Below, piece by piece: positions 1 through 41,987 of a stretch of DNA of 64,000 bases. The notes under the pieces were generated by a model that was not told the origin of the DNA, did not search any database, and saw only the letters and a program-made list of their open reading frames with translations. The position numbers and the translations under genes were made by a program. This DNA is from Bryoerythrophyllum caledonicum (Eukaryota; Streptophyta; Bryopsida; Pottiales; Pottiaceae), in contig OZ020523.1 in the NCBI GenBank assembly GCA_963971425.1, positions 11,466,867 to 11,530,866 on the forward strand, given 5' to 3'. The first letter of the stretch is position 1; every line of letters begins with the position of its first letter.

Positions 1-213
1 CTCCATCTCGCATCCATAGACCCTCAAAAACTTGGAAACATTCTTGCCATCAAACCTCCCTAATTTGTTGATGACAGTCTTCAAAGCCTTCGTAGCTCCT
101 TGTCCCGATGTATTAGCAGCTTGTTGGCCCATAAGCATTTGCATGGCCCTCATAAACTCCTCCGCAAGATTCTGACCACCTCCACCAACTCGAGTTCCTC
201 CAGAATCATCCAT
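1..213 (-). CDS. gag-like polyprotein, N-terminal part (partial)
   Basis: The first 71 codons of an open frame that continues past the window start. It begins MDDSGGTRVGGGG, has a glycine-rich opening, a methionine-rich helix (MRAMQMLMGQQ) and then LGRFDGKNVSKFLRVY. The last motif resembles the 'F.G.NV..FL..Y' start of the capsid region of plant Ty3/gypsy gag. It starts about 50 bases inside the LTR boundary, directly after the primer-binding site, which is where gag is expected. The start is the first in-frame ATG after the LTR. It is part of the retroelement and not a host gene. Confidence 0.6.
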   Translation of the reverse strand, partial: MDDSGGTRVGGGGQNLAEEFMRAMQMLMGQQAANTSGQGATKALKTVINKLGRFDGKNVSKFLRVYGCEME

Positions 214-1672: not shown

Positions 1673-2104
1673 TTAAACATGTAAAAAGTCAAGAATCTCA
1701 CGAAGAACAGCAGCAATGTAACTCGATCGCCTTTCACTACCCAAGTGTCTGAGCGGGCCTTGAAGCCAAAGACGGTGACCAAGGTCATTGGACAAGCGGG
1801 TTACCATTTGACCTTCGTTAGTGTTTTGAAAACACCCTTCAAACACCACTTGATGGCCTTCGACAAGCACATCTCCAACCTCCAAGACGATTACTAAAGT
1901 TCTTGCCTCCGGTTGTAAACTTCTTAAACTTGTCAAAGGAACTTGCTGAGGATCAAAAGCGGTACGTGGTTGAACACGACGCTCAGAAGGCCCTGCTTCC
2001 TCTCGCTCACGTCGCCTTGATGTTGATGGTTGAGAAAGTTGAATTAGATCATCCGGTGACTGAGCTAAAGAAAACTCCCAATCATCAGGGTCTTGAGAAG
2101 CCAT
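1673..2104 (-). CDS. LTR-internal ORF, 143 aa, unknown function (copy 1)
   Basis: Open frame of 143 codons in element sense wholly inside the LTR. It starts at the first ATG about 90 bases after a TATA-like box. The protein opens with an acidic motif (QDPDDWEFSLAQ), then a basic serine/arginine stretch (QPSTSRRRER), AGPSERRVQPR, a hydrophobic strand (RTLVIVLEV) and a conserved C-terminal half containing VVFEGCFQNTNEGQM, GHRLWLQGPL and SSYIAAVLREILDFL. No signal peptide or membrane segment is visible. The same protein occurs at 40845-41276 with very few changes and at 4351-4773 with about 60 percent identity judged by eye, also open. I do not recognise a family. It could be a regulatory or accessory protein of the element, which is only inference. 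Confidence 0.6.
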   Translation of the reverse strand: MASQDPDDWEFSLAQSPDDLIQLSQPSTSRRREREEAGPSERRVQPRTAFDPQQVPLTSLRSLQPEARTLVIVLEVGDVLVEGHQVVFEGCFQNTNEGQMVTRLSNDLGHRLWLQGPLRHLGSERRSSYIAAVLREILDFLHV

Positions 2105-2195: not shown

Positions 2196-3228
2196 TGTTT
2201 TTCGATAACTTCATCAAGAAGCTTGCCTTCCCTAACATTAACTCAATGACATTTCTTTAATTGGAAACGGCTAAGCAAATTTAAGTAGCCATAGATGCCT
2301 TTCCATCTAAAAGATGGTCCACAGTAAAATCAGATTAAGAAACAAACGACTTATCTGTAGTAGTATAAGACTATTGCAGGCTCGATGATAATCGCCAAGT
2401 TGCAGACTTGGTTGGCTGTTAGAGCCCGTTTGTTATCCGCCGACTGATTCCGAGTTCGAGTCTCATTGAACTCGTTGAACTGTTCGGGCGGCTGCGGCTT
2501 GGCACTTGCTAGTGAGAGCAGGAAAATAAGCAGCCAACTGGCCACCTACCTACCCCTGAGCTAGAGACAAGAGATGCAGTACATCCAAGCTAGGCTAACA
2601 AGCTCCAAATGTTCCCACATTGAATTAAACTGTAGGTCACTCTACGACCACACTTTTTGTATCTATATTATCTTTTTACATAGTGTAGTAATTTTCAACA
2701 CGACAACGCTGTCGAGTAGCGAGAGTTTTCTTTGGGAAATCGCGGAGATCCTAGCTGCTGCTAGAAATGGTTTGAGAACAAAGGTTGTCTCCAAATAAAT
2801 CTCTAGTCTTGACCACGAATTCCTCTTGTCTTCAAGTCTTTAGTCTTCACTCTTCATTCTTCAGTCTTCAATCTTCAAACTCCTCCCCGTCGGCCTATCC
2901 TGTGGTGGTTCTAAAGGGTTAAAGGTAAGGGTAGGTGATAAGAAACCACGGTCTCGGACGGGTAAAACGGGACGGCCAAACCACGAGCTGACCGTCCGAA
3001 AGATTGGCTCCTAAACTTCAAACCCACGGTGACCAGCAATCGCGCCTCACCGGTGGGAACAACATAAACACGACCGTGTGGGCCATTAACCCCACTTCGC
3101 CGCAACAAAGTTTACGAAGCAGAATTGAAAAACAACTAGCCTCCAAAACTGGCTGGGAATAACAAATAAAGACAACGAGCCTCCAAAGCCGGCTAGGAAT
3201 AACAAAGCCACAAGCCACAACACGCGAG

Positions 3229-3273
3229 TCTTCTTGTCTTCTTATCTTCAAGTCTTCATGTCTTCTTATCTTC
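3229..3273. repeat. TCTTC-type short tandem repeat
   Basis: Irregular TCTTC/TCAAG repeats within the diverged solo LTR. A related run of TCTTCA units lies at about 2823-2879. Confidence 0.6.
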
Positions 3274-3379
3274 AAGTCTTGAAGTGTTCAAAAACACAAA
3301 AGACCTCCCAAAGTTCTTTACCACACTAGCTGCGAGCTTCTAATTGATGCCACAGATGGTTCGAGCCGCCAAATGTCAA

Positions 3380-3990
3380 GTGCTATAACTTTTTGGAAAG
3401 CTGGTGCAATAAACTAACACCCTCCAAAATCTCAGGTTATTCTAAACTACCTTCTAAAAGTTAAGGAGGTTCAAAGTTTGTGCCTTCTTATGTCGATGGC
3501 AGCAAACCCTCTCCAACTTCGGCGGCTATAACTTCTATACTACGATTCTAAATGAGCCGTATAATAGCTTTATAGAAAGCTAGTTTAATAAGCTACAATT
3601 CCTCTAAATTTCACTTCAAACTAATCTACTAACTAAAAGTTATGTGAGCTTAAAACTCACGCCTCTTCACTTCCAAGATAGCAGAACTCTCTTCTACTTA
3701 GATGACTATAACTTTTTCATAGCACACTTAAATGAGTCGAGTGATAGCTTCTTAGAAAGCTAGTTCAATGAGGTATACTTCTCTCAAATTTCAAGTCCGA
3801 ACACAAAGTATCGAAGCCATGGTGAAGGCCCGAAGTTGCTGCTCCTTTAATTGGGTAGCGGCCAACTACTCCTCACTCAATCTCTCATAACTTTTGCGTA
3901 TGAACTCCAAATTGAACAAAAACACCGCTCAAAGAAGCGCAACTTCACAAGGAACAACTTCACAAATTTTCATAACATTCTCATAAAAAA
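3380..3990. repeat. Diverged tandem units of about 180 bp inside the solo LTR
   Basis: The phrase 'ctATAACTTttt' followed by 'gagt/gc..TAGCTT..TAGAAAGCTAGTT' recurs near 3380, 3523, 3704 and 3886, with spacings of about 143, 181 and 182 bp. The better preserved LTRs show similar units near 900, 1070 and 1257. The long LTRs therefore grew partly by internal duplication. Confidence 0.5.
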
Positions 3991-4350
3991 CGAGTACACA
4001 CCGCCCGATCTTCCTCTCGGGAATTTTTTTACAGCACTCTCTACACACCAAAAACACACACCAAGAGGAAAGGAGAGTCGCCCCTTATCCTTCCACATCA
4101 GCCCATGGCTAAGCCACATGGGCATCTAAAGCCTATTGGTTAACCTCCAAAAGCACTCTAAAGTCTATCAAGTTAAGATAGGAAAGAAACCCCAACCATT
4201 GGGCTTCAAAAGGTGTGGTTCCAAAAGAATTCTAAGACGGTCAAATTTTTTCTTAGTTTCTTTTCTTTTTCTTTCTTGGATCTTGATCTAATGTAAACAT
4301 AAACACATAACAAACTCCTATATTAACAACTAAATGGATTCTACCTTCAT

Positions 4351-4773
4351 CTAACTGTATAAAAACTCTATAATTTGACGGAGTACCGCTGAAACATAAC
4401 TTGCTCTCCGTTCATCGCTTAAAAAGGTCAGCGGCCCTCGAAGCCAAAGACGGTGGCCCATCTCATTAGAAAAGCGACTCACCATTTGGCCTTCATTGGT
4501 ATTTTCAAAACACCCTTCAAACACCATCTGACGGCCACCCGTCAATGAAGCTTCAGCCTCCAATACAATCACTAGAACTTTCGCGTCCGGTTGTAGATTC
4601 ACAAATGCAAGTTGCCGTAGACTTGGATCTGGACGTGGTTGAACACGACGCTCGGAAGGCCCCGCTTGATCTCGCACTCGCCGTCTGGAAGTTGATGGCT
4701 GAGAAGATTGAAACGGATCCTCCGGTAATTGCGATAACGACAACTCCCACTCATCTGGATCTTGAGAATCCAT
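4351..4773 (-). CDS. LTR-internal ORF, 140 aa, unknown function (diverged copy)
   Basis: Diverged relative of the ORF at 1673-2104, at the same place in its LTR, about 76 bases after a TATA-like box. Shared blocks include SQDPD.WE.SL, QPSTSRRR, AGPSERRVQPR, LVIVLE, VFEGCF.NTNEGQMV, GHRLWL.GPL and SY..AVLR.I..FL. Many of the differences are conservative (E/D, I/V, K/R) and the frame is open from end to end, although the surrounding LTR has drifted far. Function unknown. It may be a fossil reading frame that simply has not yet broken, but that is less likely at this level of DNA divergence. Confidence 0.55.
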   Translation of the reverse strand: MDSQDPDEWELSLSQLPEDPFQSSQPSTSRRRVRDQAGPSERRVQPRPDPSLRQLAFVNLQPDAKVLVIVLEAEASLTGGRQMVFEGCFENTNEGQMVSRFSNEMGHRLWLRGPLTFLSDERRASYVSAVLRQIIEFLYS

Positions 4774-4844
4774 ACTATCAACTCTAAGCTATCCAAGCTA
4801 TTGGCTTGAAGCAAATCATGTGAGGCAAAGAAACTATCTTCTTT

Positions 4845-4850
4845 TTTATA
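4845..4850 (-). promoter_or_regulatory. TATA-like box in the diverged LTR
   Basis: Minus strand reads GATATAAAAAAG about 76 bases ahead of the ORF start at 4773, in the same relative position as the TATA-like boxes of the other two copies. Confidence 0.4.
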
Positions 4851-5523
4851 TCTCTCAGTAACTTCTTTAAGAAGCTTGCCTTCACTGAATTACTCAAATA
4901 GCCATAAATAATTCTATTTTAACTAAAAGTAGCCCGCATCAAAAGATCTGGCTAAAGGACAAGGTCGCGACATTGTACAGTCCCTCAACAGTTGTATAAA
5001 GCCACCTTGAGTCCACTAATGGTCGCCAAGTTGCGGACTTGGTTGGCTGTCAAGGTCCGTCGACTGTTGCCTGCCGGTTCCGGGTTCGAGCTTTATCAAA
5101 CTCGTTGAACGGCCTGGATAGTTGCAACTTGGTACTTGCTAGTGAAAGCAGGAAATAAGCAGCCAACCGGCCACCTACGCTTCCCTGAGCTACAGTGACA
5201 AGATGCAGGCTTCCAAGTTATGCTAACAAGCTCCGGTTACCCCCCCCATTGAACCAAACCGTGGATTTCTCCACGACCCCAACCTTTTGTATCCTTCTCC
5301 TCATATTCTATCCGATGTCTAAGGCAACATCTTTAATATTTTCACACAATATATTAATTTACAACGCGACAACGCTAACTCGAAGGACGGGTTTATAACA
5401 AGCGACCTTGCTTGCCCCTAGACCTCGATAGTTGTAGGGTTTCTAAATCCAATCTTCCATTTGGAGAAGCCCAAGCGGTTGGTGTTTGTTAAAGGGAGGT
5501 TGATCTACAAACTCTCTTTCACA

Positions 5524-10091: not shown

Positions 10092-11351
10092 TCATGCCCG
10101 GATGAAGCCCGGATCGTGACGGGGGACCGATACCTGACTTGAGGTGCCCATGATGACATCCTGGCCGGATATCTGTCTTGGAGTGTACAAGTAAGAGGAG
10201 CTCTCACTTGCGGTCTTCCCAAGGTGAAGCCCGCTTAGCAAAGGGGCCACAATCGGTGTAGTGCGCGGGAGGTCACTGAGTGGCAGCTGGCGAGGGTGCA
10301 CAGGGAGTGGGGGCTCCATCGCAACACCCGAGCGTTCCTTCCAACCGCTCTGCATCGGTGTGGTGACCTCCGAAGGGAATGGTCCTGCCGGGACCCTCGA
10401 ACTCAGGAGTTGAGGGGGCAGATCCGGGCTGTCAAGGTCCACCACTTCCTTCTTCTTCCGTGAGCCGTGATCACCGAGGCAACGCTCCTCTGGGTTGGTC
10501 TCCGAACCCGAGTCTCCATCCTTGTCGGAACTGTCAGAGTCTTCCACAAACTTGGGTAGAATGTGAGTGAGATTGCTCACCAATAACCTCATGTTGGCAT
10601 AAGCCACCTCAACCTTCACGGTTACGAAGGCAATCACCCACTTGCTGGAAATGTGGTCATCCCTCTCCAATCGAGCATCAAACATCTTGGCCTTTAGTAC
10701 CACACCTGCGGGAAAACGTAATGCTTCGTCTACCTGCTGTAATGCTGCCGCCGAGGCATTAGCTTGGAGAAGAGCCGCCTTGCAACTCCTCTCTGCCTCC
10801 AACGCTCGACTCTTCACCTTTGTCACATCGAGTGTGAGTCCGTTGACCTTCTGCTCCATGAGACGTAGATCGCCAGCTCCTCCGACCTTCTCCTTGATTG
10901 TAGCGATCAACCCTTCACGCGGAGGGTTACCCACTAAGCTGCTTGCTTGTCCCAAAGTTCTATCCGCATCTTCCACATATACGCGAATGGCTTCTAGTAG
11001 CTCAGAGGCCGGATAAGACTTGCCTCCAAGTTGCGCCGGTCCGGTGGTTGCGGCACAGATGGCTGCGCGGGTGCGGGTGGAAGGGGCTCCTTCCTGTCTT
11101 TGTCTCTGGCGCTTGGGATTTGGTACAACCTCCTCTCTTGACTGTGATAAGCTGCTCCTTCCTTCAGACCCCGGTTCAAGTTCTGATTTTGTCCCTTCAA
11201 ACTTCTTCATCATCAGTTGCGTTCCATACGCCATGTCCTCCTCAGGAGTAGTCTCCTTGAAATGGTGATATTGGTGGATCAGAAACGGGCAGAGGGATGC
11301 ACGCTTGACATTGTGAATGCTCCTGGTCAACCAAATCACCACATCCTTCAC
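10092..11351 (-). CDS. Family X ORFb, 419 aa, unknown function
   Basis: Long open frame directly after ORFa on the minus strand. It starts with a helical, basic segment (VVIWLTRSIHNVKRASLCPFLIH), then an acidic/basic low-complexity part with nuclear-localisation-like PNPKRQRQRQ, then a helical, probably coiled-coil region (roughly residues 120-270, with VNGLTLDVTKVKSRALEAER and ANASAAALQQVDEALRFP), and ends with a serine/proline-rich tail preceded by an acidic EDSDSSDKDGDSGSE run. No catalytic motif is visible. Architecture matches the 366 aa frame at 44395-45495. A gag-like structural role is possible but not shown. It might also be a host-derived gene, but its repetition argues for an element protein. 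Confidence 0.5.
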   Translation of the reverse strand: MKDVVIWLTRSIHNVKRASLCPFLIHQYHHFKETTPEEDMAYGTQLMMKKFEGTKSELEPGSEGRSSLSQSREEVVPNPKRQRQRQEGAPSTRTRAAICAATTGPAQLGGKSYPASELLEAIRVYVEDADRTLGQASSLVGNPPREGLIATIKEKVGGAGDLRLMEQKVNGLTLDVTKVKSRALEAERSCKAALLQANASAAALQQVDEALRFPAGVVLKAKMFDARLERDDHISSKWVIAFVTVKVEVAYANMRLLVSNLTHILPKFVEDSDSSDKDGDSGSETNPEERCLGDHGSRKKKEVVDLDSPDLPPQLLSSRVPAGPFPSEVTTPMQSGWKERSGVAMEPPLPVHPRQLPLSDLPRTTPIVAPLLSGLHLGKTASESSSYLYTPRQISGQDVIMGTSSQVSVPRHDPGFIRA

Positions 11352-11360
11352 AATGATGGC

Positions 11361-11849
11361 TCAATTCACCACCCTCTCGCCTAGGTAGGAGCCATACACG
11401 GTGTTAGCAAGAGTAACCGTCACTTGGGTGGGTTTCTCGGGGTGTAAGATTGGTACAAGGAATGTGAAGACCCTTCTGGCACGGGGGTCCGCACAATCTT
11501 GTACCGCATAACCATTCTTGGCGTTTTTGTTACCGAACTTCCCCTTGGCATACTCCTCCTTCATACTTGTCCATCCCGCCCCTTGTCGTGGAAAGCCATA
11601 CACCTCTTGCCACCTCCCCATGGTCCATCTATCCGAACAAGCCCGGATGCTATCTCCATCGGGTTCCGGTAAGGGGTCTTGCCTCATCTCCTGCACGGTT
11701 GATTCCACCCACAAACTCCAACAGAAATCCATCAGAGAAAGACATCCCATGCAAAGAAGATCTTCTTTGAGCTCGGTGAGCTCTAGAATATCCTTGGGAA
11801 TGACCGGGGTAATGTCATTCTTCCCTGATGGCACCAAGTTGGAGGCCAT
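11361..11849 (-). CDS. Family X ORFa, 162 aa, unknown function
   Basis: Open frame immediately before ORFb. It begins MASNLVPSGKNDITPVIP and contains KEDLLCMGCLSLMDF, WTMGRWQEVYGFPRQGAGW, a KNAKNGYAVQDCADPRARR block and FTFLVPILHPEKPTQVTVTLA. The same ordered blocks (Y.GC.GLLE, W...Y.F....., K.GYN.QDL, GFLNPIFHP..P..VV) occur in 45502-46053 and, in part, in 47107-47484. The arrangement recalls plant 'putative transposon protein' domains found beside retroelements, a comparison from memory and not a search. No enzyme motif. Confidence 0.5.
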   Translation of the reverse strand: MASNLVPSGKNDITPVIPKDILELTELKEDLLCMGCLSLMDFCWSLWVESTVQEMRQDPLPEPDGDSIRACSDRWTMGRWQEVYGFPRQGAGWTSMKEEYAKGKFGNKNAKNGYAVQDCADPRARRVFTFLVPILHPEKPTQVTVTLANTVYGSYLGERVVN

Positions 11850-14417: not shown

Positions 14418-16769
14418 ATGCGACGCACACAAACAGGAAAACAAGCACGTGAGCTCAGAATGAGGGCACCAACCAGGAGCGGAACAAGGCGAGAGAGCGA
14501 CCAGCTTCCGATTCAACAACAAGAACATGGGGTAGGGAATGCAAGGCCGAGCGGGAACGTGACCATCCCGAACCCTAATTCGAGGCCAGCCCTGCCAGCA
14601 GATTAGGGACAGACAACACGAGATGCCCCTCCAGGCCCTCGGCGCAGCACATCGACAGCGAGCTACGCTGCAGCACTCACATCAACATTGGCGCACGCGC
14701 CCATCACAGCAACCAATTCAGAAAATGCGAGGAGAGCGGAAGACCTTAAGCAACAGGAGAACATAGAACCGGAGCTAATAGCGGCGGCGGCACATCTGGG
14801 ACAACATGCGGAATTCAACCCGACGAGACCGCTTCCTGGTGAAAAACTCCCAACTTCTCTTTTTTGCACAAGTGCTGGCTTCTTAGTCAGGAAGGAAGCT
14901 GCAACCTTCACCGTAGACGCAGAGCGAGTAAAAAAGGAAATGGAGCGTTTCCAGAAGAGCGTGGTGATAGCGTACTTTGTAGGAGAGAGGCCAAGATGGG
15001 AAGAACTCCAGCAGTGGACTACGGCTGTATCGAAGGAAGCAAAGGGCGAGTGCCAAATTGGCAGAGACCTAGGGCACGGTTTTTTCCAAGTAACAACACA
15101 AGAGGAAGCAACTACACAATCACTACTAATGCTTACCCCTCACCTCTCGAGGTGGGGCACGTGCATCATGCAGCCGTGGGTTGCAGGGTTCAACTCAAGC
15201 ATGCCGGCCAAGGCACAAATCCCGGTCTGGATCACGTTGAAAGCAATTCCTGACGAGCTACGAAGCAGCGGTCAGGACATTGCTCAATGCCTGGGTAGAG
15301 TGGTAGGCCGACATAAAGGAAACCTCTACGCCTCTGATCAGAAATTCTGCATAGTAGTTCAGTCTGGGAAGCCCTTCATAGTAAAGATAGATGTCACTAA
15401 CCCGATCTCCAAAGAAGTTACAGAAGTGGAAGTGGACTACAACAATCTTCCCATTCGTTGCCGATTCTGCCTAGCCACTTCCCACTTAATCAAGGACTGC
15501 AAAGCCCTACAGAACTCAAAGCGATCCCCGCAGCCTCAAGTAGCCACAGTAGCCAGGGTAGCGTCCATCTCCAGCACCTTAAGCCCGAATCAGGAGGAAC
15601 GAGGCAGTCTGGAGGAGGATACAGCAAAGACGGTCGCCACGGCACGGACCACCCCACCACCGAGACCAACCCCGCAACACAGAGGCGAGGAAATCAGACA
15701 AGACGAGAGGACCCCAGGGAATCAACAACAAAAAAAGACTCAACGCAAAACGGACGGTGCAGCAGGAGCAGACCCTTCTACCAGAATCTGGCAACGAGGA
15801 CTTAGAGTAGAGGAATGGAGAGAGAGAGAAAAGGTCAGAGGATACGCCTCCTCACCGAACACGACGGAATTCTCTGAGGTAAACGAGCTTAATGCGGCTT
15901 GTCAAGAATGGCGCCTAAGGGACGAGCTCCCACATGAAGCACCTATTCCTGCGTTCAGTGCAGGGGATGGAGGCAGTGTACAAGCTCGCGAGCTCAGACG
16001 AAACCTGGACATCCACATGAGAACGTCTCGAACGCTTCAGGAACAAGCCACACTAGAAGTAGACAGAAACAAAGAAACCAGCATTGACCCCGAAAATCGA
16101 AGGGAAATAGGGGAGGAAAGTAGTTCAAAGGAACTCACCCATTCGAGAGTACCGGAGAACATCTCATCAACTTCATCTGGAGATCCACTGATCCCCCCCA
16201 GCGATCATAGTGGCAACGTGACAGATGCGGCCTACACAATTACAAGATTCGGAGCTCCAGAAACGATGACAGAAGTGGAAGATGTCGTGATGAACGAGAT
16301 TGAGCCACAGCCAACTAACCCAGCTTGGAAACCTCATCGTCAGCTGGACCTGAACACCGGGGGAGACTCCCGCCTTACTGGACGAACCTACGACACTGAC
16401 GGACTCAGTCTAGGAATAGATGACCTCCTGGAGCAAGACGATAGAACCAAAAGAGGGCACGCAACTTCATTGCAAACAGGGAAGAACCAAAAGCAGATAC
16501 CTGCTCATGTTGAATCAGCACTGAGGGACTGGCTCCGAGAGCAGGGGCTCGGCGATATACCCCTCACGTACTCCCCGGTGAAAGCCAGACTACCTTCAAG
16601 GCACCTCGTACACAGCAAGCTCGGCCGACGACTACAAGGCCATCGACAAGGCGAACAAGGGGTTCTACCCCAGTCCAAAAATAAGACGTCCAGAGTTCCC
16701 CGACAGCCGCCCCACACCGAAAGTACGAGCATAGCCTTGGTACCCGCGAACCCCCCCACCCAATCATGA
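14418..16769 (+). CDS. LINE ORF1 protein (RNA-binding, CCHC), with one in-frame TAG
   Basis: ORF1 of an L1-type LINE, presumed nucleic-acid-binding chaperone of the retrotransposition particle. The frame is open from ATG 14418 to TGA 16767-16769 except for TAG at 14604-14606. After that stop no ATG occurs before 14940, so the true start is probably 14418 and the TAG a later change. The central part (about 14830-15440; FFQVTTQEEATTQSL, WGTCIMQPWVAGFNS, IPVWITLKAIPDEL) looks like the DUF4283-type region of plant LINE ORF1. A knuckle CRFCLATSHLIKDC (CX2CX4HX4C) lies at about 15458-15499. The C-terminal 400 residues are polar and low in recognisable structure. The stop codon overlaps the ORF2 start (ATGA), suggesting termination-reinitiation. 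Confidence 0.85.
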
Positions 16770-19700
16770 AGGTCACAATTATCAGTCAAATCGTTCAGGG
16801 CATAAATGACCCTGTTAAAGTAGACGTAATACGGAATTACTTCAGAAGCTTGTTACGCACGACGGAGGTGCTCTGCTTGCAGGAAACAAAACTTCGAGGG
16901 AGAAAGTTTCAGGCTTTTGCAGACTCACTCTGGCCAGGCGCAAGATTCCTGGGACTAGAAGCGGAACCGGCGTACAACAATAATGTAGAGACAGAAGGAG
17001 TAGGGAGCGGAGGGATCGGAATGTGGATCACCCCCAAACTTACTCATCTTATTGGGACTCATGGCCATTCCTCGCGTGGTAATGCGCAATGGGTGCGACT
17101 TACGGGAATCCCGGGCGGAGATATTGCTATTCTCAATGTGTACTGTCCACACACGTCAACTGAACGAAGCATACTCTGGAGGGATCTTATGGCTACCCTT
17201 CCCAGAGATTGCCGGTGGATCTTTGCCGGTGACTGGAACTTCGTTGAAAGAGAAACGGACAAGTCCAACCTTAGAGACTCCCCTAGGTCCGAGGAAGAAA
17301 AACACATGTTTGAAGAACTCAAGTCAATATTCGAAGTCGAAGACCCATTCCCGAAAAGCAACAAAATAAGGTTTTCCTGGGACAACCGACGTCAAGGGCG
17401 ACACCGGGTATTAGCTCGCCTGGACAGGATTTACACCTTCGAAGGGAGCAACCCAACAGCGTCCAATCACACATACCGTATTCTAGGGGACACATCTCAC
17501 TCCGACCACCTCCCTGTGAAGAGAGAGGTCTGGCTGGAAAGACAGGAAAAACGGCGCTCACCATACGTGATGAACGCCTCTCATTTAAAGATGCATGAAG
17601 TCCAAGAACAGGTGAAGAAGATCTGGCAGGACCATCATCACCTCACTTTCTTTGGCAAACTTCGACGAGTAGTCAAATACATCAAAATATATGGAAAGAA
17701 GAAGGCACAGGAAGGTCGGGCGGCAGAAACGAACCTGAGATGGAACTTGGAGACAGCAGTAACAACACTGCAGGCGGAGCCCCTACTACAGTGTTCACAG
17801 GACCAAGTCTCGACACTGCTTGGCGACCTCCAAAACCTAGAAAAGAAGAAGGCAATAGGGCAGCGCCTCCGGAGCAGGATCAAATGGCACGAGGTGGGCG
17901 ATAAATGCTCGCGTGAATTTTTCGCGTCCCACAAGGCACGTTCTTCGGCATCTCACATCACCGAACTCAGGGACGAACACGGCGTGGTCCAAACCTCGAA
18001 AGCAGGCCTGGAACGAACTTGCAAACGCTTCTACGAGCAGCTGTACACTGCTCGACCCCCTTCACCAGCATCTTCAGGAGCCGAACACCAAGTCCTGCAG
18101 CTCTTAACAGACAGACTCTCCCCCGACATGAAGGCCTCGCTCAATGCCCCAATCTTGAACTCAGAGTTGAAGAGAGCACTATTAGACATGAAACCAGGAA
18201 AGTCACCAGGTCCGGATGGGGTAGTATTAGAATTCTATCAAGTTTTTTGGGACCTGCTGGGTCAAGAGTTCACAGACATGATCGCTAACAGTATCGCGAC
18301 AGGGAGACTCCCAAACGGAGTTACGCACGGGACACTCGCGCTTCTCCACAAAGCCGAAGCACGCAATGAACTCACGAACAGGAGACCTATATCTTTATTG
18401 AACGTAGCATACAAGATCTACGCAAAAACTTTACAACTTAGATTACAACCCATTCTGATGGAGATAGTGAGCCCAGAACAATCAGCCTTCCTCCCCCTAC
18501 GCTTCATATTAGACAACCTTCTCCTCACGCATGAGACTATGGCGTGGGCTGAACAGACAAACCAACCCCTACTTTTCCTAAAACTCGACTTCACGAAGGC
18601 ATATGACATGGTGGATTGGAGCTGCATGCTCAAAATCCTGGCAGCGTTAGGTCTCCCTCCAGGATTCATAGACATGATCCGGATCCTTCTTCAGGACGCA
18701 TCCTCCTCTGTAAAGATCAACGGCACCACCTCCCCCCAGTTCCCGATTAACAGAGGCGTGAGACAGGGATGCCCGCTGGCTCCCTACTTGTTCATACTAG
18801 TGGCAGAGGCCCTCAACAGGATGGTCAAAGAAGGAGAAAGATCGAACAGGATTTCGGGCATCCAGCTTCCAGAGGAAAGCAGACAACAGACCATGGCGCA
18901 ATATGCCGATGACACTTCCTTCACCCTTCTTGGAAAAGAAGAACCTGTCCGCAACCTAGTGTACACACTGGACGTTTTTTGTCTCGCAACAGGGCTGGTG
19001 ATTAACTGGAATAAATCTAGTGGATATTGGCAGGATTGGTCGGGATTGGGTTGTCCGAGGTGGACGGATCAGCTCAACATCAATTGGGCTGATAACTCAG
19101 AGGTGAGTAAACTACTCGGGTCTCCTTTTGGAATGTCTCTCTCGTCAAAATCAGTCGACGACTTCCTTGTCGACAAAGTCACCAAGAAACTGGCATTCTG
19201 GAGTTCCACCAAAATCAACCCCACAGGTCGGAGCATTGTCGCGAACAGCGTTCTCCTCTCGGCCCCACTTTATTATCTATCATTATGGGGACGAACGAAA
19301 CAAGGTGTGAGAAGAGTTCGTAGCTTAGTGATGAACTATATCGCGGCAGGAACGATGAAGCGGTCGCGGATCAAAATAAGTTGGCTACAATGCTGCCAAA
19401 CCAAGGCTAAAGGGGGAATCAACCTTATCAACATTGAAGATGCCACCACGGCGCTCATGACAAAATGGATCATGAAGGCCGTAGAACCTGGCTCTTCTAA
19501 CCTCCACTACATGCTTCGATATAGACTTGCTGCATACCAACCGTTCTCTGGAGGAAGGTGGCCATGCAGTTTGGACTACTTCACCATGCCGCGACATCAA
19601 GCACACAAAGGCTCACGCGTCTGGAATAGGGCCACCACTGCATGGAAACTTCTCCTACCCTCCCTAGTGTTCGTCAGGCCTTCAAATACTGAGGAACTCC

Positions 19701-21205
19701 TAAATTGTAGTTTCTGGAACTGCCCCGGAATTCGGAGCATTGGACCGGGCTTCTCACGTATCAGAGCACTGGCCCTTCATAAGGTCGGCCTCAGACAACT
19801 GCGGGATGCATGGTGTAATGGAAACTTCATCCCTTTCGAAGTGGCGCGACAGAGGTTCGATCTTGCCCCTACGGAGGCCGGAGCTTGGCAAAGCCTTATG
19901 TACAACTTCCAACAAGAGCATCAAAATCTGTTGCGGCGATCGTCGAACCTTGCTGCAAACAGTGAATGGGTTGCTCTCTATCGGGCTGAAGAGGACGTCT
20001 CACCGGATCTCGTCTTTAGAACCAGTGAGGAATGCAGACCCCAGCTTGATTGGTCGACACTTGAAATTCCGGCCGGCACGCTTACCTTTTCCGTACGCAG
20101 CACCACTGCGAGTCTCCAACCCGTCGAATGGGGAGCCCGAGGCCCTCTCGCAGGATGGAACACAAGAGGTGATGACTACGCCACTACCCACATTGGCTTT
20201 ATCAGGAGAGTCCGAGTTGTACAAGTTGAAAGGGGCCCGAAGAAGACTATCATCTCCTTGTTCTACGGCCGGTGTGACCAACTTGCATGGGACCCCGACA
20301 GGTATTCTTGGCTCGGGGAAGTTCCCTTCATGAAGTTCACGGCTAGACTGGGGAGAACCATCCTCAGAGATAGGCGAAAACTGCCTTCCGTGGTTGAACG
20401 AAAATGGAGTGGGATCCTCCCTCCATCCTATAAGCTTCGCTGGCTTAACATTTGGGATGGGACCAGAACGCGAAAAGAAGGCGGTCTTCTCTGGCATGTA
20501 TGGCATAAAGCGGTTGCCGTCAACGTATGGAGAGGTAGGGTCCAGAATTCGGTCGACCAACAGTGCCCGATCTGCGTGGACGCTACGCCGGAGACTATCA
20601 TCCACAGGTTCTGGACGTGTCCCTCTGCCCAGGTCGCCTGGCAATGGAGTCTCGATACCTTGCAGAAGATGCTTCCTCAGGCCAGAGCTAAGGCGATCAT
20701 CGAAGGCAATGTGCCCGACGCCCAGAACAGTCACCGGTCTTCGTCTCAGTCACAAGACGATACCCACACTCAGGTCCATGTTGCCGAGAATACCAATGCT
20801 CACATTGGACCCGTGCTTACGTGGAAGCATGGTATTTTTGCTCACAGGATGCTCAGAAGATTCAAGCCTATCAGCTTCATCTAGCTTATCATGCGGGGAT
20901 TGGTCATTTGGAGTCTCTGGAATGAACGAAATGATACTGTCTTCAATGGCAACAGATGGCCCCGCCCCAAGCTGCAGACTAAGCTCTGGATGAGCCTCAT
21001 TGACCATGGGCGCGCTGCTTGGAACAGGACCCTGGCGAGACGGAGCAACGCGCCGGAGAGATGCGAAAAGCACACCAATGTTTTCAAAGAACTTTGGTGT
21101 CGCAACGACATCTTGGCCTCCTGGGTGGATGGAAGACCTCAGTGGCATCTTCTCCCCGTTTGTACTAGTAATATTTCTAACATTGACATTAGTACTGACC
21201 ACTAA
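16766..21205 (+). CDS. LINE ORF2 protein: endonuclease / reverse transcriptase, with one in-frame TAG
   Basis: ORF2 of an L1-type LINE. The APE-type endonuclease spans about 16766-17530, with LCLQETKLRG, FAGDWNFVE and SHSDHLPV. The opening ISQIVQGIND has Ile where the family usually has Asn (as in SWNVRG), a possible loss of a catalytic-site residue. The reverse transcriptase (about 18340-19020) has RRPISLLNVAYKI, LKLDFTKAYD, GVRQGCPLAPYLF and AQYADDTS. A zinc-binding region (about 20490-20650) has LLWHVWHKA, CPICVDATPETIIHRFWTCP. The frame meets TAG at 20882-20884, then continues in the same frame with RGLVIWSLWNERND, the usual C-terminal motif of plant LINEs, to TAA at 21203. The TAG could come from a TGG tryptophan codon. 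Over 1,370 codons precede it. Confidence 0.9.
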
Positions 21206-30434: not shown

Positions 30435-30941
30435 TCTACACTTACATATTCCACACCAAGACAATATTTCAACTCGCCAAAATTGGTCATGTCAAACTCT
30501 GCGCCAAGCTTGCCTTTGAGCCTCGTCAACTTGGCCAAAATGCTAGCCAAGATGATCAAGTCATCCACATCGATGAGCACTATCAACAAGTACTTACACG
30601 TTTGTTTTATGTACAATGAGTGATCTGCTTCACTTCTTGTCAACATTTTTTGATGAAAAATGAGTTGATCCATTGGTACCAAGCTCTTGGTGATTGCTTG
30701 AGTCCGTACAACGACTTCTTGAGTTTGCACACAAGATACTTAAAGTCCTTCTTCTCAAAACCTTGTGGTTGGCTCATGTAGATGTCCTCTTCCAAATCGT
30801 CATTCAAAAATGCGGTCTTCATATCCATGTGATGGATCTCCAAATCCAATGCGGCTCCAAGCGCAATAATGCACCGAATGGTGTTGAACTTGGCAACGAG
30901 AGCAAAGGTCTCAAGGAAGTCCACTCCTTCAACTTGAGAGT

Positions 30942-31206
30942 TGTTCGAGAATAGAATTTCTTGTTATTATTATGATATCGTAAATATTTGAGGTAGATTT
31001 AGAAGGGAAAATAAAAAGGAGAAAGTGGAGAGAGGTGAAAAGAACTTAAAGGAGTCCCATATGTATTGGCAAATGTTGTTACCAATTGGTACTATAAGTA
31101 AAGGCTTTCAAAAGAAGGCCAAATCTCACTCCAAGCATGGTTTGTAATACCTTATGTGTTTCAATTGCTTGTGCAATCATTTCTCTACTTCTTTTGAACT
31201 TCAATA
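30942..31206 (+). repeat. 5' LTR of the plus-strand copia
   Basis: 265 bp, begins TGTTCGAGA and ends TTCAATA. Preceded by AGAGT. Confidence 0.85.
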
Positions 31207-34200
31207 GGTTATGGGCTCACTCATGTGAGTTGTGTGTGTAGAGTTTTGGTGTAAATTGATAGGAAAAGATCTTGAGAGTCTTTGAGTGTTGGAGGTGCAC
31301 AAGATTCAATTTGGAGCATCAGAGGTGTACAAAAGTTGACTCAAGGTTGTTGGAACATTGGAGGTCTGCAAGTATTGATTCAAGGCCGTTGGAAGCAAAG
31401 GAGGTGATTGAAGCCGACCCAAGATATTTCTAGAAGCATTGGAGGTGATTGAAGACGACCCAAGGAGTTTCTAGGAGCATTGGAGGTGCACATTCAAGGA
31501 TCTTGACTTTGTAAGTGTTTACATTTGTACTTTTCACTTTTGGACTTCGCCGATATACATAGTACACAACTTATATGGGTAGCCCTAAAATTTGAATGCA
31601 ATAGGTGCATAAGTGCACATTAAAAGTTAGAAGTTAATGTTGAAGTGCAAATATGGCAACATATGATGGCGAGAGTGCTAGAGTCATTGACAAGTTCAAA
31701 TGTGAGAATTTCAATCTTTGGAAGTTCAAGATGGAGATGGTGTTGGCATCCATGGACCTTTGGAAGATTGTAGATGACTTCGAGGAGCCTCCAACGGAAG
31801 ACAATGATCCAAAGGTGAAGGACTATGTTCGGCTTGTGAAGAAGGTCATATCTGTCATTGGCCTCAACTTGGTGGACAATCAACTTGCACACATCAAGAG
31901 TTCCAAGAGACCCGCAGAAGCATGGAAGACTTTGTGCAACATCCACGAAACAAGGAGCTTGTCCAACATCTTTTTTATTTGCCGCAAGCTCTTTACAAAT
32001 TACAATCAAGATGCAAGAGGGAGATGATTTATTGAATCATGTCAATGAAGTGAAGGCACTTGCGGATCAAGTCACTTGCTTAGATGTCCCGGTGAGAGAT
32101 GACGATGTGGTCATGACCTTGTTTGAGAGTTTGTAGCCTTCATATGAACACTTGATCACGGCCTTGAAGACCTTGGTAATGAAGGAGCTCACCATGGAGT
32201 TTGTGACGGCGCGGTTGATGCACAAAGTATCCAAGCGCAATGAGAAGGAGCCCAATGGTGACGATGTGGCTTTGTTGTCAAAACAAAACAAGTGGGGAGG
32301 CTCTTCTTCATCATGTGGCGAGCCCAAGGTATATTACAATTGTGGCAAACCGGGCCATCTTGCACGAAATTGCCTCAAGCCAAAGAAGTGGGAGCGGGAC
32401 AGTGCGAACCAAGCAAAGGAGAAGGAGAACGCCAATCATGCAAAGGAGGATGATTACTACGCATTTACAACTGAAGGTAGACCACATTCCAAGTCCATAT
32501 GTAAGTGGATCATGGATTCGGGCGCCACAAAACACATGACACCTCATAAGACGACATTTGACACGTATGAGGTAATTACTCCATGGAATGTGCATTTGGA
32601 TGATGATAGTGTTTTGGAGGCCGTTGGCGTCGGATCTATTGTTGTCAAAGTACTTGTGAGGGGTTGCTCTAAGAGGTTTAGAATCAAGGACGTTCTCCAT
32701 GTGCCCAAGTTGCAAGCGAACTTACTCTCGGTGAGAAAATTTGTGACAAGTAGAATGAAGGTGCAATTCAACGTGGATGGATGTGTGTTGAGGGCACCAA
32801 ACAAAGATGTTCTTGTGGTAGCACCTCGTGAAGGCAATATCTATCAAGCATCTTTCATGAAAGTGTTTGAGGCAGATGCAACAAACGTGGCACAATCATC
32901 AACAAAGAGTGGTGCATTGGAGTTTTGGCATTGTCGTCTTGGTCATTTGAACGCGAGAAGTGTGCATTGACTTGAAAGCATGGTAAGTGGCATGACTCTT
33001 GGCAATGATGAATTATCAATGTCATTTTGTGAATGATGCGTGCAAGGCAAGCAACATAGGGGACCATTTCTGAAGGATGGAGCGACGCGTGCAACAAAGC
33101 TTTTGGAGATTGTGCATTCAGATGTGTGCGGCCCCATGAGGACCACTTCCATAGGTGGTGCAAGGTATTCTGTGACCTTCATTGATGACTTTTCGAGGAG
33201 GGTGTGGGTGTACATCTTGAAGACAAAGAAGTTATGCCCTAAGAAGTTCAAGGAGTTCAAGGCCCTTGTGGAGAAGCAATCGGAGCACAAGATCAAGGTG
33301 TTTTAAATGGAAAATGGTGGGGAGTTCATATCCAAACGCTTTCAAAGTTTCTTGAAGAAGCATGGCAATGAGAGGCACACGTCAACACCTTACACGCCAA
33401 AGAAAAATGGAGTTGCGGAGCGTGCAAATTGTACCATAGTGAAAATGGCGAGGAGAATGATCCATACACAACGCCTAAAGCTTGAACTTTGGGCGGAAGC
33501 GGTCTACATCCGCAATCGATGTCCAACGAGGGCTCTCGTCACCATCACACCCCAAGAAGCTTAGAGTGGCCGCAAGCCATGCATTGCGCATATGTGTGTG
33601 TTTGGATGCATTGCATATGCGATGGTGCCGGATACAAAGAGAAGTGAGCTTGATGCAAAAGGTACAAAGTGTTTATTTTTTAAAGATACTAGTATAAGTG
33701 ATGTTTTGGAGATGAGTCCAAGTGGGGGAAGCGTGATCCCTACTTTGGTGGACAAATCTTCTAAACCACCAACCTTGAAAGATTGCAATGGCGATACTGA
33801 GAAAGAAGAGAGATTGGATGCCGAAGAAAGAGGTGTAGCATCTTCATCAACACCTTCACCAAGCGATGAGGACTTAGGGAACTTACAAGAGCCGCGGTAT
33901 CGAAGAAGAGAGCGTCGCTCGCCCGGTGATTGGTAAAGAGCCACATTTTGCCTCAACATGAGATAGAGCGTGTCAATGTGGCGTCATTGGAGGATCTTTT
34001 AAACATGTATGAGGCTATGCAATCGGAGGATGCAAGCAAGTGGGAGTCGGCCATGCAAGAGGAGTACGACTCACTCATGGCAAATGGCAGGTGGGAGTTG
34101 GCTCCTCTTCTAAAGAATCGCAAGAGCGTTGGATGCATGTGGGTGTTTCGTGCGAAGAAAGATGTTTCGGGTCGAGTGGTGCGCTACAAGACAAGATTAG

Positions 34201-35551
34201 TTGCCAAGGGGTTCTCTCAAGTTGCGGGAGTGGACTTACTTGAGACCTTTGCTCCCGTTGCCAAGTTCACCACCATTCGGTGCATTCTTGCACTTAGGGT
34301 GGCCTTGGACTTGGAGATCCACCAAATGGATGTGAAGACCGCATTCTTCAATGGTGAGTTGGAAGACATTTTCATGGACCAACCCCAATGTTTTGAACAA
34401 GAAGACTTTGATCATCTTGTGTGCAAGCTCAAGAAGTCATTGTATGGACTCAAGCAATCACCAAGAGCATGGTACCAATGCATCGATGTTTTCTTCACCA
34501 AGGAAGGTTTTACATGAAGCCAAGCGGACCATTCCTTGTACATCAAGCAATTGGATGAGTACTTGGTGATAGTCCTCATCTATGTGGATGACTTGATCAT
34601 CTTGACTAGCCTTTTGGCTAAATTAACGTGGTTCAAAAGGTAAACTCAACACGGAGTTTGAGATGAGCAATCTTGGTGAGTTAAAGTATTATCTTGGTGT
34701 GGAATTTGTGAGAGACCGCAAGGCACGCACCATCACCATGAGCCAAAAGAAGTATGTTGAGATGGTGCTCAAGCGCTTCAATATGGAGAATTGCAAGCCT
34801 ATTGATACCCTTCTTGATGTGAATGTCAAGTTATTGAAGCTTTCGAAGGAAGAGTTTCAAGCCATTCAAGGTGAAATGGAAGGCGTGTCATACAAGAGTG
34901 GAGTTGGATCCTTGATGTATGCCATGGTAGGCATACGGCCTGACCTTTCTTTTGCGGTGAGCATGTTCTAGGGCATGCCATACATTAGAGTGTCGTGAAG
35001 CGCATCATGCGGTATTTGCAAGGTACTGTAGACCACAAATTGTGCCTTGGTGGTAAGGACATTGCTTTGAGGGGGTATTGCAGTGCGGATTATGTTGGAG
35101 ATGCAAACGAGCGTCATTTGACAACAGGGTTTGTATTTTTTATTGGAGTTGGTGCCATCTTGTGGAATTACAAGAGGCAACCAACCATTGTCTTGTCCAC
35201 GACGGAGGCGGAGTACATGGCAACAAGCCAAAGTACTAAAGAAGTCATTTGGCTTTGCAAGCTCTTGGCGGATGTGGAATTTCTTCAAGAAAGAGCAACG
35301 ACCATCATGTGCAATAACCAAGGGTGTATAGCTCTTGCAAGGAACTCCACACACCACTCACATACAAAGCACATTGATGTGCAACATCACCTCATTTGCG
35401 AGAAGTTGGAGAGTGGCAAGATAAGCTTGAAGTATTGTCCAACAAAAGACATTGTGGCGGATGTGTTGACGAAAGCACTTGCAAAAGAGCGGCATCATAG
35501 GTTAGCAAAGGCAATGAGATTGCAAGAAGGTAACTACTCACAAAGTGGAAG

Positions 35552-35816
35552 TGTTAGAGATTAGAGTTTATTGTTGTTAATATGATATCGTAAATAATTG
35601 AGGTAGATTTCGAAGGGAAAGTAAAGGGGAGAAAATGGAGAGAGGTGAAAGGAACTTAAAGTAGTCCTATATGTATTGGCAAATGTTGTTATCAATTGGT
35701 ACTATAAATAAAGGCCTTCAAAAGAAGGTCATATCTCACTCGAAGGATTGTTTATAATACCTTATGTGTTTCATTTGCTTGTGCAATCATTTCTCTACTT
35801 CTATTTAACTTCAATA
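35552..35816 (+). repeat. 3' LTR of the plus-strand copia
   Basis: 265 bp, begins TGTTAGAGA and ends TTCAATA, followed by AGAGT. The purine-rich CAAAGTGGAAG lies just upstream. Confidence 0.85.
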
Positions 35817-37348
35817 AGAGTATCCCTTTGCCACCAACCATGCCTTGTAGCAAAGCATCTTTCTTTGTGCAAAACACCCACTTGCAGCCGACGCTCTTGC
35901 AACCCTTTGAAAGGGGAGCCAACTCCCAAGTTTCATTTGCCATGAAGAAATTATACTTCTCTAGGATGGCCGCCTCCCACTTGCTTGCATCCTTAGATCG
36001 CATGGCTTCACACACGTTCAATGGATCGTCAAGAGTGGCCACATTGGCCCGCTCCACTTCATGCTGCGGCAAGATGTAATTCATCCACCACTCTCCAGGC
36101 CGCCGCCCCTCCCTTCTTGGATATCGTGGCTTTTAAGTGCTCCCACTATCCTCATGATCACTTGGTGTTGATGTAGATGTTATTGAAGGCCACACGGTTG
36201 CACCTTCTTCTTTACCATCCACCGTCTTCTCCTTCTTGGGATCACTATCACCCATGGTACTTGGTTTAAAAGATTTGTCCACCAAAACTAGCAAAGGCTT
36301 CTCACTACTCCCACTTGGACTCATTTCCAAACCATGACCAAGACTTGAGCTATTGTCAACAAACACCACATCACGACTCCAAATGATCTTCTTTGTCTCA
36401 ACACACATAAAGCGATATGCCTTGGTGCCCTCGCAATAGCCAAGAAACAAACACTTTGTGCCTTTTACATCGAGTTTATCCATCTTTGCATTTGGCACCA
36501 TTGCATGTGCAATGCATCCAAACACACGCATGTGTGCAATGCATGGCTTGCAGCCGCTCCAAGCCTCTTGTGGTGTGATGGTGACAAGCGCCATTGTCGG
36601 GCACTGATTGCGGATATACACTGCATTGGTCACCGCTTCTGCCCAAAAAGCTAGCTTGAGCCGTTGAGTATGGATCATACTCCTCGCCATCTCCACAATG
36701 GTGCGGTTAGCTCGCTCGGCCACTCTGTTTTGTTTGGACGTGTACGGTGTTGATGGTTGCCTCTTTATGCCGTGATGCTTCAAGTAGCCTCAAAATGCCT
36801 TGGAGATGAACTCTCCACCATTGTGGGACCGAAACTCCTTGATCTTGTGCTCCGATTGCTTCTTTGCAAGCCCCTTGAACTTCTCAAGGCACTCTCCTTT
36901 CGTCTTCAAGGTGTGCAACCACACGTTCCTTGAAAAGTCATCAATGAAGGTCTCAAAGTATCTTGCACCGCCAATGGACGTGGTCCTCATGGGCCACACA
37001 CATCTGAATATACAATCTCTTAAGGCTTTGTGGCACGAGTCCCTCCATCCTTTGGAAATGGTGCCCTACGTTGCTTGCCTTGCACACATCCTTCACAAAA
37101 TCGCATAGATGACTTATTTTTGCCAAGGATCATGTCATTTACCATGCTTTGAAGAAAATGCACACTTCTCACATTTAAATTACCAAGTCAACGATGCCAA
37201 AGCTCCATGGTGCCATTCTTGCTTGATGGTTGTGCCAAATTGGCCGCATCCGCCTCATATACCTCGGTGAAGGCTACTTGATACAAATTGTCTTCACAAG
37301 GTGCTACCGCAAGTACAACTCCATTTGGTGCCTTCATTGAGCACCCGT

Positions 37349-38560
37349 TGTTGCAAGTTGCCGGGTCAATATTCCTCCAAAAGGCACTCAATTGTTGTTA
37401 AATGCTTCCAAAGTAATTGCTCTAGTGTCGTTACCACAGAGACCTATTGTTCTTTCTGAATAAAGTAGAAAAACTAAACTACCAAACACTAATCCACAGG
37501 TTAGTTTTCCTACTCATTCCTTGCTCAATATCCGGATCCTTCTGGATTTTGGACTTCTTACAATAGCTTCCGGAACTAATTTCCGGAGAGCTGGAAGGGA
37601 GTTTTATTTATCTCTGTTCTTCCTCAGAGAGTTTTCCGGGCAATTTAAATAAGTGACGGGAAGGCCACTGATCCTGTTTGTATAAGTGGCCGGATTCCCC
37701 ACTCTCTTGTGACTTAAAGTGACTAGACACCCACTAGCTCGTAACTTAAAGTGGCTAGACACCGGCTCTCTCTACTCCGCTAACCGGTGGACGATTGTTG
37801 TTGCTAGACCCCTAGTCTAACAACATCCGGATAGTTATCCAAATGCGGTCACACAGATATGAGTCCGGACTACAACAACATTCCAATCAGTACAATGGTG
37901 GTTCTACCGAGTGAGCTTTACAGATTGCAAAGAGGATTTCCTTCTAGACATATTGTTGCAAGTTGTAGAGTAAGTATTCCTCTGGATAGCACTTAGTTGT
38001 GGCTAAATGTATCCAAAGTATCCGCTCTAAGTTCGTTCCCAGAGAGACCTATTGTTCCTTTCCTAAATGATAGACAAAAACTAACTACCAAACACTACTC
38101 CACAAGTTAGCTTTCCTATTCATCCCTTTGCTCCCGATCCGGATCCTTCTGGATTCCGGAGTTCTTAAATAGCTACTGGAACTAGTTTCCAGACAGCCGG
38201 AGGATAGTTTGATTTATCTCTGTTCCTCCTCAGAGAGTCTTCCGGACGGTTTAAACGAGTGACCGGAAGGCCACTGATCATGTTTTGTGTAAGTGGCCGG
38301 ATTCCCCACTGTCTTGTGACTTAAAGTGGCTAGACATCCACTGCCTCGTAACTTATAGTGGCTAGACATCCACTCTTCCTACTCCGCTAACCGGTGGACG
38401 TTTGTTGAAATCGGACCCACACTCTCAAATATCCGGATGGCCATCCGGACGCGGTCATGCAGAGGTCAATCCGGACTACAACAACATTCCGGTTGGTACT
38501 ACAGTGGTTCTACTGATGAGTGTTACAGTTTGTAAGTGAACTTCCTTCTAGACATACACA
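37349..38560. repeat. Tandem duplication of the X terminal unit (about 610 bp each)
   Basis: 37349-37961 and 37962-38560 both begin TTGTTGCAAGTTG and end TTCCTTCTAGACATA. Shared blocks include CAGAGAGACCTATTGTTC-like, CCGGATCCTTCTGGATT, CTCAGAGAG, GGCCACTGATC and CCGGACTACAACAACATTCC. Clear divergence between the copies, so the duplication is not recent. Confidence 0.8.
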
Positions 38561-40844: not shown

Positions 40845-41276
40845 TTAAACATGTAAAAAGTCAAGAATCTCACGAAGAACAGCAGCAATGTAACTTGATC
40901 GCCTTTCACTACCCAAGTGTCTGAGCGGGCCTTGAAGCCAAAGACGGTGACCAAGGTCATTGGACAAGCGGGTTACCATTTGACCTTCGTTAGTGTTTTG
41001 AAAACACCCTTCAAATACCACTTGATGGCCTTCGATAAGCACATCTCCAACCTCCAAGACGATTACTAAAGTTCTTGCCTCCGGTTGTAAACTTCTTAAA
41101 CTTGTCAAAGGAACTTGTTGAGGATCAAAAGCGGTACGTGGTTGAACACGACGCTCAGAAGGCCCTGCTTCCTCTCGCTCACGCCGCCTTGATGTCGATG
41201 GTTGAGAAAGTTGAATTAGATCATCCGGTGACTGAGCTAAAGGAAACTCCCAATCATCAGGGTCTTGAGAAGCCAT
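40845..41276 (-). CDS. LTR-internal ORF, 143 aa, unknown function (copy 2)
   Basis: Same protein as at 1673-2104 with only a few substitutions (for example FPLA for FSLA and VLIEG for VLVEG), open throughout, about 90 bases after a TATA-like box. That both recent copies and the diverged copy at 4351-4773 keep the frame suggests that the protein was useful to the element. Function unknown. Confidence 0.6.
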   Translation of the reverse strand: MASQDPDDWEFPLAQSPDDLIQLSQPSTSRRREREEAGPSERRVQPRTAFDPQQVPLTSLRSLQPEARTLVIVLEVGDVLIEGHQVVFEGCFQNTNEGQMVTRLSNDLGHRLWLQGPLRHLGSERRSSYIAAVLREILDFLHV

Positions 41277-41361
41277 ACTATCAACCTATAGAAACTAAGA
41301 AGAAACAATCCAAACTAATAATGACCTGAAGTAATGCATAAGGCACGGCAACCATCTCCCC

Positions 41362-41367
41362 TTTATA
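41362..41367 (-). promoter_or_regulatory. TATA-like box in the solo LTR
   Basis: Minus strand reads ACATATAAAGGG, 90 bases before the ORF start at 41276, as in the first copy. Confidence 0.45.
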
Positions 41368-41987
41368 TGTTTTTCGATAACTTCATCAAGAAGCTTGCCT
41401 TCCCTAACATTAACTCAATGACATTTCTTTAATTGGAAACGGCTAAGCAAATTTAAGTAGCCATAGATGCCTTTCCATCTAAAAGATAGTCCACAGTAAA
41501 GTCAGACTAAGAAACAAACGACTTATCTATAGCAGTATAAGACTATTGCGGGCTCGATGATAATCGCCAAGTTGCAGACTTGGTTGGCTGTTAGAGCCCG
41601 TTTGTTATCCGCCGACTGATTCCGAGTTCGAGCCTCATTGAACTCGTTGAACTGTTCGGGCGGCTGCGGCTTGGCACTTGCTAGTGAGAGCAGGAAAATA
41701 AGCAGCCAACTGGCCACCTACCTACCCCTGAGCTAGAGACAAGAGATGCAGTACATCCAAGCTAGGCTAACAAGCTCCAAATGTTCCCACATTGAATTAA
41801 ACTGTAGGTCACTCTACGACCACACTTTTTGTATCTATATTATCTTTTTACATAGTGTAGTAATTTACAACACGACACCGGTCGTGGTCCCTACCACATC
41901 TTTGATACTGGAGATCTCTTCCGGAAGACCCCTGGACAATGGGAAAGTCGTCTTCCAGTGGGTGGAGGACGGGGAGAAAGGAGGTAT

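Follow-up and report, generated by a model that had tools for sequence, protein, structure and literature searches.

A selectively conserved open reading frame on the sense strand of long terminal repeats in a probable plant retrotransposon family

Three related long terminal repeats (LTRs), all with their sense strand on the minus strand, lie within the 64,000-nucleotide stretch of Bryoerythrophyllum caledonicum DNA analysed here (hereafter the window). LTR A occupies positions 264-2705, LTR B 2710-5371 and LTR C 39439-41877. The initial annotation had called them giant; long they are, at 2.4-2.7 kb, although "giant" is a relative term. All three begin with TGTCG and end with GACA, and so have the TG...CA termini of LTRs. 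A and C are near copies (97.99% identity over 2442 positions), while B is a distant relative of A that has diverged strongly except in a few modules.

The flanks and surroundings of the three copies differ. CCGG stands on both sides of C and GCGT on both sides of B, as target-site duplications would; because of these matching flanks, C is a solo LTR, as judged from the sequence, and B is probably one too. LTR A has GCGT upstream, the upstream flank being the only one inside the window. Directly after LTR A on the minus strand comes the stretch TTTGGTGCTTCCACTGAGAG (244-263), which is like a primer-binding site (PBS) by position alone and in which a TGG-starting stretch lies 2 nt past the LTR. 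It is followed, 50 nt past the LTR, by an ORF that looks gag-like by eye (1-213, minus strand, ATG at 213). Its 71 codons up to the window edge gave no Pfam gag match. Since a PBS-like stretch and then a gag-like ATG follow it on the minus strand, A is read as a 5' LTR, whose element body, with pol and the second LTR, would extend beyond the left edge of the window. The GCGT between B and A (2700-2715) is the same as the GCGT preceding B (5365-5380). It seems that A either inserted exactly at the target-site duplication of B or arose with B as a tandem pair.

A LINE at 14940-20884 on the plus strand has unbroken ORF1 (609 aa) and ORF2 (1372 aa) with a 4-base overlap and is possibly a young copy; its ORF1 matches DUF4283, presumably a plant domain, at 27.2 bits, which is exactly the Pfam cut-off. 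Inverted and direct pieces of Ty1/copia elements form a nest of insertions at 30444-37336, with an RVT_2 domain at 34005-34514. A sequence of about 605 bp is present twice in tandem at 37348-38556 (81% identity), and a third, partial copy lies near 42810-43526. Long ORFs were also found on the minus strand at 10092-11234, 11361-11849, 41988-42620, 44395-45492, 45502-46053 and 47107-47484. Pfam assigned no convincing family to these six, giving at best weak matches below the cut-off, and by eye some of them look like one gag-type protein shared by additional elements. An axonemal dynein heavy-chain exon lies at 60691-61167 on the plus strand; its best matches (over 60691-61164) are DNAH7 and DNAH3, which we take to be inner-arm chains, the exon then being of inner-arm type. 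The exon points to a host with motile cilia and, together with the DUF4283 match, suggests a land plant whose sperm swim, such as a moss, lycophyte, fern, cycad or Ginkgo.

Each of the three LTRs contains one ORF of 140-143 codons, as had been proposed earlier; to that description can be added the strand, which is the minus strand and thus the sense strand of the LTRs. Copy A runs from 2104 to 1673 (143 codons), copy B from 4773 to 4351 (140 codons) and copy C from 41276 to 40845 (143 codons), and all three are unbroken, in keeping with the claim that the frame is nowhere disrupted. Translated on the plus strand, 1673-2104 contains nine stops. The proteins of A and C are 99% identical. Those of A and B share 88 of 140 ungapped positions (63%), with one three-codon gap in B, close to the 60% first estimated for the strongly diverged copy. 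By eye, each of the three start codons stands in a good context (A at -3, G at +4), and the 3' region after the ORF is U-rich.

The TATA-like box reported upstream of the ORF was found in every copy as TATAAA on the minus strand, beginning 91 nt before the ATG in A (2190-2195) and C (41362-41367) and 77 nt before it in B (4845-4850). Just above it in A lies a conserved 19-bp box, AAGCTTCTTGATGAAGTTA (AAGCTTCTTgAtGAAGTTA), at 2206-2224 on the minus strand, of which 17 of 19 positions are unchanged in B (by eye). Consensus and conservation together support the TATA box as the putative promoter of the LTR ORF. In organisation alone, a complete sense-strand ORF and a predicted promoter both lying within the LTR, this is the arrangement of an LTR-encoded accessory gene of the sag type, described below.

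The evidence that the ORF encodes a protein comes mainly from its pattern of divergence. With A and C almost identical, the deep comparison is effectively a single one, A/C against B, and its dS, near 1, is imprecise and close to saturation (A-B: dN 0.236, dS 0.98). Maximum-likelihood codon analysis of this one effective lineage pair gave a dN/dS of 0.23 (2ΔlnL 36.7 against a ratio of 1), so that the ratio, proposed at the outset as a check, is not near 1. Analysed separately, codons 1-48 gave 0.20 and codons 61-143 gave 0.21. Differences between A and B fall 31/27/61 on the three codon positions (p = 1.7e-4) with no stop. When the A frame was mutated neutrally to the same distance, start and frame were kept in only 24 of 5000 runs, and protein identity averaged 49% with a maximum of 58.7%, against the 63% observed. 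The A-C pair, with five synonymous and two non-synonymous changes, points in the same direction (Fisher p = 0.009; 2ΔlnL 4.7), and its deficit of non-synonymous changes relative to the remaining LTR is borderline (p = 0.054).

An open frame without a product, arising by chance, was considered, since an ORF of at least the observed length turned up in first-order Markov versions of the LTRs, read in six frames, 3 times in 500 for A and 11 times in 500 for B. However, conservation across diverged copies at such a dN/dS is far stronger evidence than this test of ORF length. The codon analysis of A and B, including its codon phase, and the neutral simulation led us to reject a chance frame, which retains a barely perceptible probability. 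Codon phase likewise excludes conservation at the DNA level without coding as an explanation for the ORF; for LTR positions 1-340, described below, that explanation is adopted. Taken together, dN/dS, codon phase, neutral simulation and a non-coding LTR start free of codon phase show that the protein is under purifying selection. The initial annotation's central claim, that the LTRs contain a genuine and conserved gene for a protein, is thereby upheld, and we regard the coding status of the ORF as close to certain.

Conservation of the rest of the LTR is modular. At an E-value of 1e-5, blastn of B against A returned only 1752-2116 (the ORF, 76%) and 2392-2663 (75.5%), and a more sensitive comparison added short matches downstream of the ORF. 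The conserved modules comprise LTR positions 1-340, the promoter with the ORF, a CCAAT/GCCCAT/ATGGGCT block, a region of degenerate repeats and the last 55 bp. Over the non-coding LTR start (2366-2705, minus strand, in A), 92 of 337 aligned positions differ between A and B (73% conserved), with one 36-base and five 1-base gaps, and the differences show no codon phase (31/31/30). This segment of A contains four CCAAG/CTTGG motifs. Over its first 640 bp LTR A has four such motifs and LTR B five; of 1000 shuffles, 37 had at least as many as A and 15 at least as many as B, a modest enrichment in a motif picked after inspection. By eye, the plus strand of the conserved start (about 2385-2480) also resembles a decayed tRNA-type A-box and B-box, in B too; ARAGORN and Rfam reported nothing at this stretch.

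The CCAAT/GCCCAT/ATGGGCT block lies at 1445-1492 on the minus strand, 181-228 nt after the ORF stop in A, and is identical in B at 39 of 48 positions. Its best score (42.5 bits) and that of the repeat region (44.0 bits) both exceed the best of 60 shuffles (35.4 bits), whereas the last 55 bp (39 of 55 identical), at 35.4 bits, merely equal it. The block is a possible promoter of the genomic RNA. Between A and B, alignment downstream of the ORF ranges from 37 to 61% per 100 bp; shuffled units of 179 nt average 46%. Near position 40305, C reads TATAAATAG, and the corresponding stretch of A, which differs at base 1133, reads TGTAAATAG; this may be a second LTR promoter altered in one copy.

The degenerate repeats form three units in each LTR, all on the minus strand: 179-bp units with TAGCTTTCYAARAAGCTATCACTCG-like starts in A (771-1307), units of 179-180 bp in B (3225-3762), the first two 64% alike, and three TAGCTTTCYAARAAGCTATCACTCG-like motifs 179-180 bp apart in C (39943-40479). 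The 25-bp TAGCTTTCYAARAAGCTATCACTCG-like motif occurs three times per LTR, against a mean of at most 0.04 in 50 shuffles, while the whole units of about 180 bp, apart from the first two of B, mostly match one another no better than shuffled sequence. The motif spacing of 179-180 bp is near the nucleosome repeat length.

The main rival to an accessory gene with its own transcript is that the TATA box of the ORF is the sole promoter of the LTR, in which case the genomic RNA would have the ORF as its first cistron, in R/U5, and access to gag-pol would depend on reinitiation, shunting or splicing. The ORF could then encode a leader protein serving translation or packaging instead of a regulator of transcription. 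By eye, TATAAA is the only clear TATA box at a common place in A, B and C, and the motif of C near 40305, altered in A, is not matched by anything at the equivalent position of B, both of which favour a single promoter. Set against this, the conserved block downstream of the ORF resembles a second, downstream promoter, and a single promoter at the TATA box would impose a leader of about 1.9 kb before gag. We consider this arrangement somewhat unlikely.

Database searches with the protein brought up no relative. Pfam contained no family for proteins A, B and C, and NCBIfam and PHROGs none for A and B. Two matches among PDB sequences, with E-values of 0.75 and 1.4, are at chance level, and none was significant. 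In IMG/VR and GTDB there were 29 and 65 pattern matches, respectively, none of which was confirmed by tblastn. Apart from PDB chains and Pfam, the databases searched hold little or no eukaryotic sequence; IMG/VR and GTDB consist of viral and prokaryotic DNA, and the null result there therefore says little about plants.

Two AlphaFold models reached a pLDDT of 45.1 and 45.7, and the second has, at very low confidence, four strands and a C-terminal helix. Foldseek with the second model gave no match at E ≤ 0.001 among the best 50 of 363 in PDB or the best 50 of 830 in BFVD. The top three BFVD matches among those 50 (E 0.088-0.17, probability 0.96-0.98) are unnamed and nothing was drawn from them. 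Pur repeats consist of four strands and then a helix, and Pur-alpha chains ranked 23 and 33 among the best 50 of 363 PDB matches; their E-values of 2.0 and 2.5 are noise at a pLDDT of 45, and this candidate was rejected. By eye, an acidic N-terminus (DPDDWEFSL) is followed by an arginine-rich stretch (SRRRERE...SERRVQPR) and then by a conserved domain. This composition fits a nuclear regulator that binds nucleic acid, and other roles would fit it too.

One such role would be to suppress RNA silencing in general, or to counter the host in another way, with no action on LTR DNA. The viral proteins that suppress silencing are often small orphans, and the LTR protein is small, carries a basic stretch and found no relatives in the databases searched. 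It shows no significant likeness in fold or sequence to any suppressor, although the models are too poor for this to exclude one, and its C-terminal part evolves under purifying selection (0.21) and not fast. We judge this role improbable. Still less probable is that a fragment of a host gene was captured in the LTR of a founder element and has since been carried along. Capture of genes by LTR elements is known (PMC7264820), and the Pfam scan revealed no relative among known element proteins; but passive carriage sits poorly with a gene maintained in two diverged lineages, in which selection has continued and the promoter-like box is conserved.

The reading we favour, tentatively and at slightly less than an even chance, is that the LTR carries an accessory gene and that the encoded protein acts on the LTRs of its own family. 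The LTR would comprise a complete sense-strand gene, with an upstream control region, the TATA box, a short leader, a single ORF and the U-rich 3' region, and transcription would start from the gene's own TATA box independently of the genomic RNA. With its acidic N-terminus, arginine-rich stretch and small domain, the last modelled at very low confidence, the protein may be nuclear and may act on its own LTRs as a transactivator or as a sequence-specific anti-silencer similar to VANC. Such a regulatory role, over the element or, as also first suggested, over the response of the host, is plausible from the location of the gene, its conserved non-coding partners and the composition of the protein; no sequence or fold match lies behind it.

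Three features count towards a protein that acts on the LTR: the 73% conservation, free of codon phase, of the LTR start, the CCAAG/CTTGG motifs and the units of 179-180 bp. However, the LTR start must be conserved in any case for integration and transcription, which counts against reading it as a target of the protein.

Because the gene sits in the LTR, a full insertion carries it twice and a solo LTR retains it. Solo LTR C and the probable solo LTR B both keep promoter and ORF, and solo LTRs could on the favoured reading continue to supply the protein in trans. The fullest form of this reading, that the LTR is by itself a complete gene, encoding an anti-silencing or activating protein which binds its own LTR in a sequence-specific manner, that solo LTRs are autonomous trans-acting genes and that the control protein thereby survives removal of the element by LTR recombination in the host, is rather unlikely. 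LTRs are usually regarded as non-coding and solo LTRs as footprints. With a gene under selection inside the LTR of a plant element, a protein encoded by an element could outlast deletion of that element, and solo LTRs are worth checking as genes.

Several known systems share parts of this organisation. Tax, Bel1/Tas and Nef are products of retroviral accessory genes located outside gag-pol, and these may act on the LTR or overlap it. With the LTR protein, the search of PDB sequences returned no significant match of any kind. A clear precedent, by analogy, for an LTR gene that persists in solo LTRs is sag of mouse mammary tumour virus (MMTV), which, like the ORF described here, lies on the sense strand of the LTR, has one of its promoters inside U3 and is retained in solo LTRs. 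According to the account of sag-containing contigs in PMC4667437, which also treats LTRs as ordinarily non-coding, 490 of 527 such contigs had no match to other retroviral genes, which indicates solo LTRs. Sag is, however, an immune ligand of animals, and the majority, not all, of its gene lies in U3, whereas the ORF described here lies wholly within the LTR of what is probably a plant element. The likeness is one of organisation, the LTR protein having no detected relative and no Pfam family.

Among plant elements, gene23 of the maize Ty3/gypsy element Grande is the closest precedent. It too is an accessory gene: it has a promoter of its own, and its protein is nuclear and has no known relatives (PMC7264820). 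In contrast to the ORF described here, which is in the LTR and in sense orientation, gene23 is antisense to gag-pol and lies internally, between pol and the 3' LTR (PMC7264820). Other additional ORFs (aORFs or eORFs), such as the env-like gene of Athila, those of RIRE2 and Retand and ORF0 of Retrosat2, are likewise extra genes retained by plant elements, but the aORFs of that review are internal, unlike the LTR ORF (PMC7264820). The element bearing Retrosat2 ORF0 has LTRs of more than 3.2 kb, and as far as the description in PMC3485330 goes, ORF0 is placed upstream of gag-pol and not in the LTR. The REXdb survey, as its description of eORFs in PMC6317226 states, counted them from 250 codons up, and an LTR ORF of 143 codons would therefore go unlisted there. 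No plant LTR with its own complete ORF was found in the open-access literature by a search that depends on wording. Two candidate cases were set aside: PMC1560396 concerns a gene inside a retrotransposon and PMC11117352 is loosely worded.

The mechanism proposed on the favoured reading has its nearest counterpart in VANC of the VANDAL DNA transposons, with which it would share the logic of a protein that is encoded by the element and acts, in a sequence-specific way, on non-coding repeats of that element (PMC10398659). VANC belongs to another class of transposon and its gene occupies a different position, and the likeness is one of proposed logic. The three motif-bearing units of 179-180 bp in each LTR recall the tandem repeats that VANC binds, as these are described in PMC10398659. 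VANC-type anti-silencing may have a counterpart among retrotransposons, for which the LTR protein is a concrete candidate.
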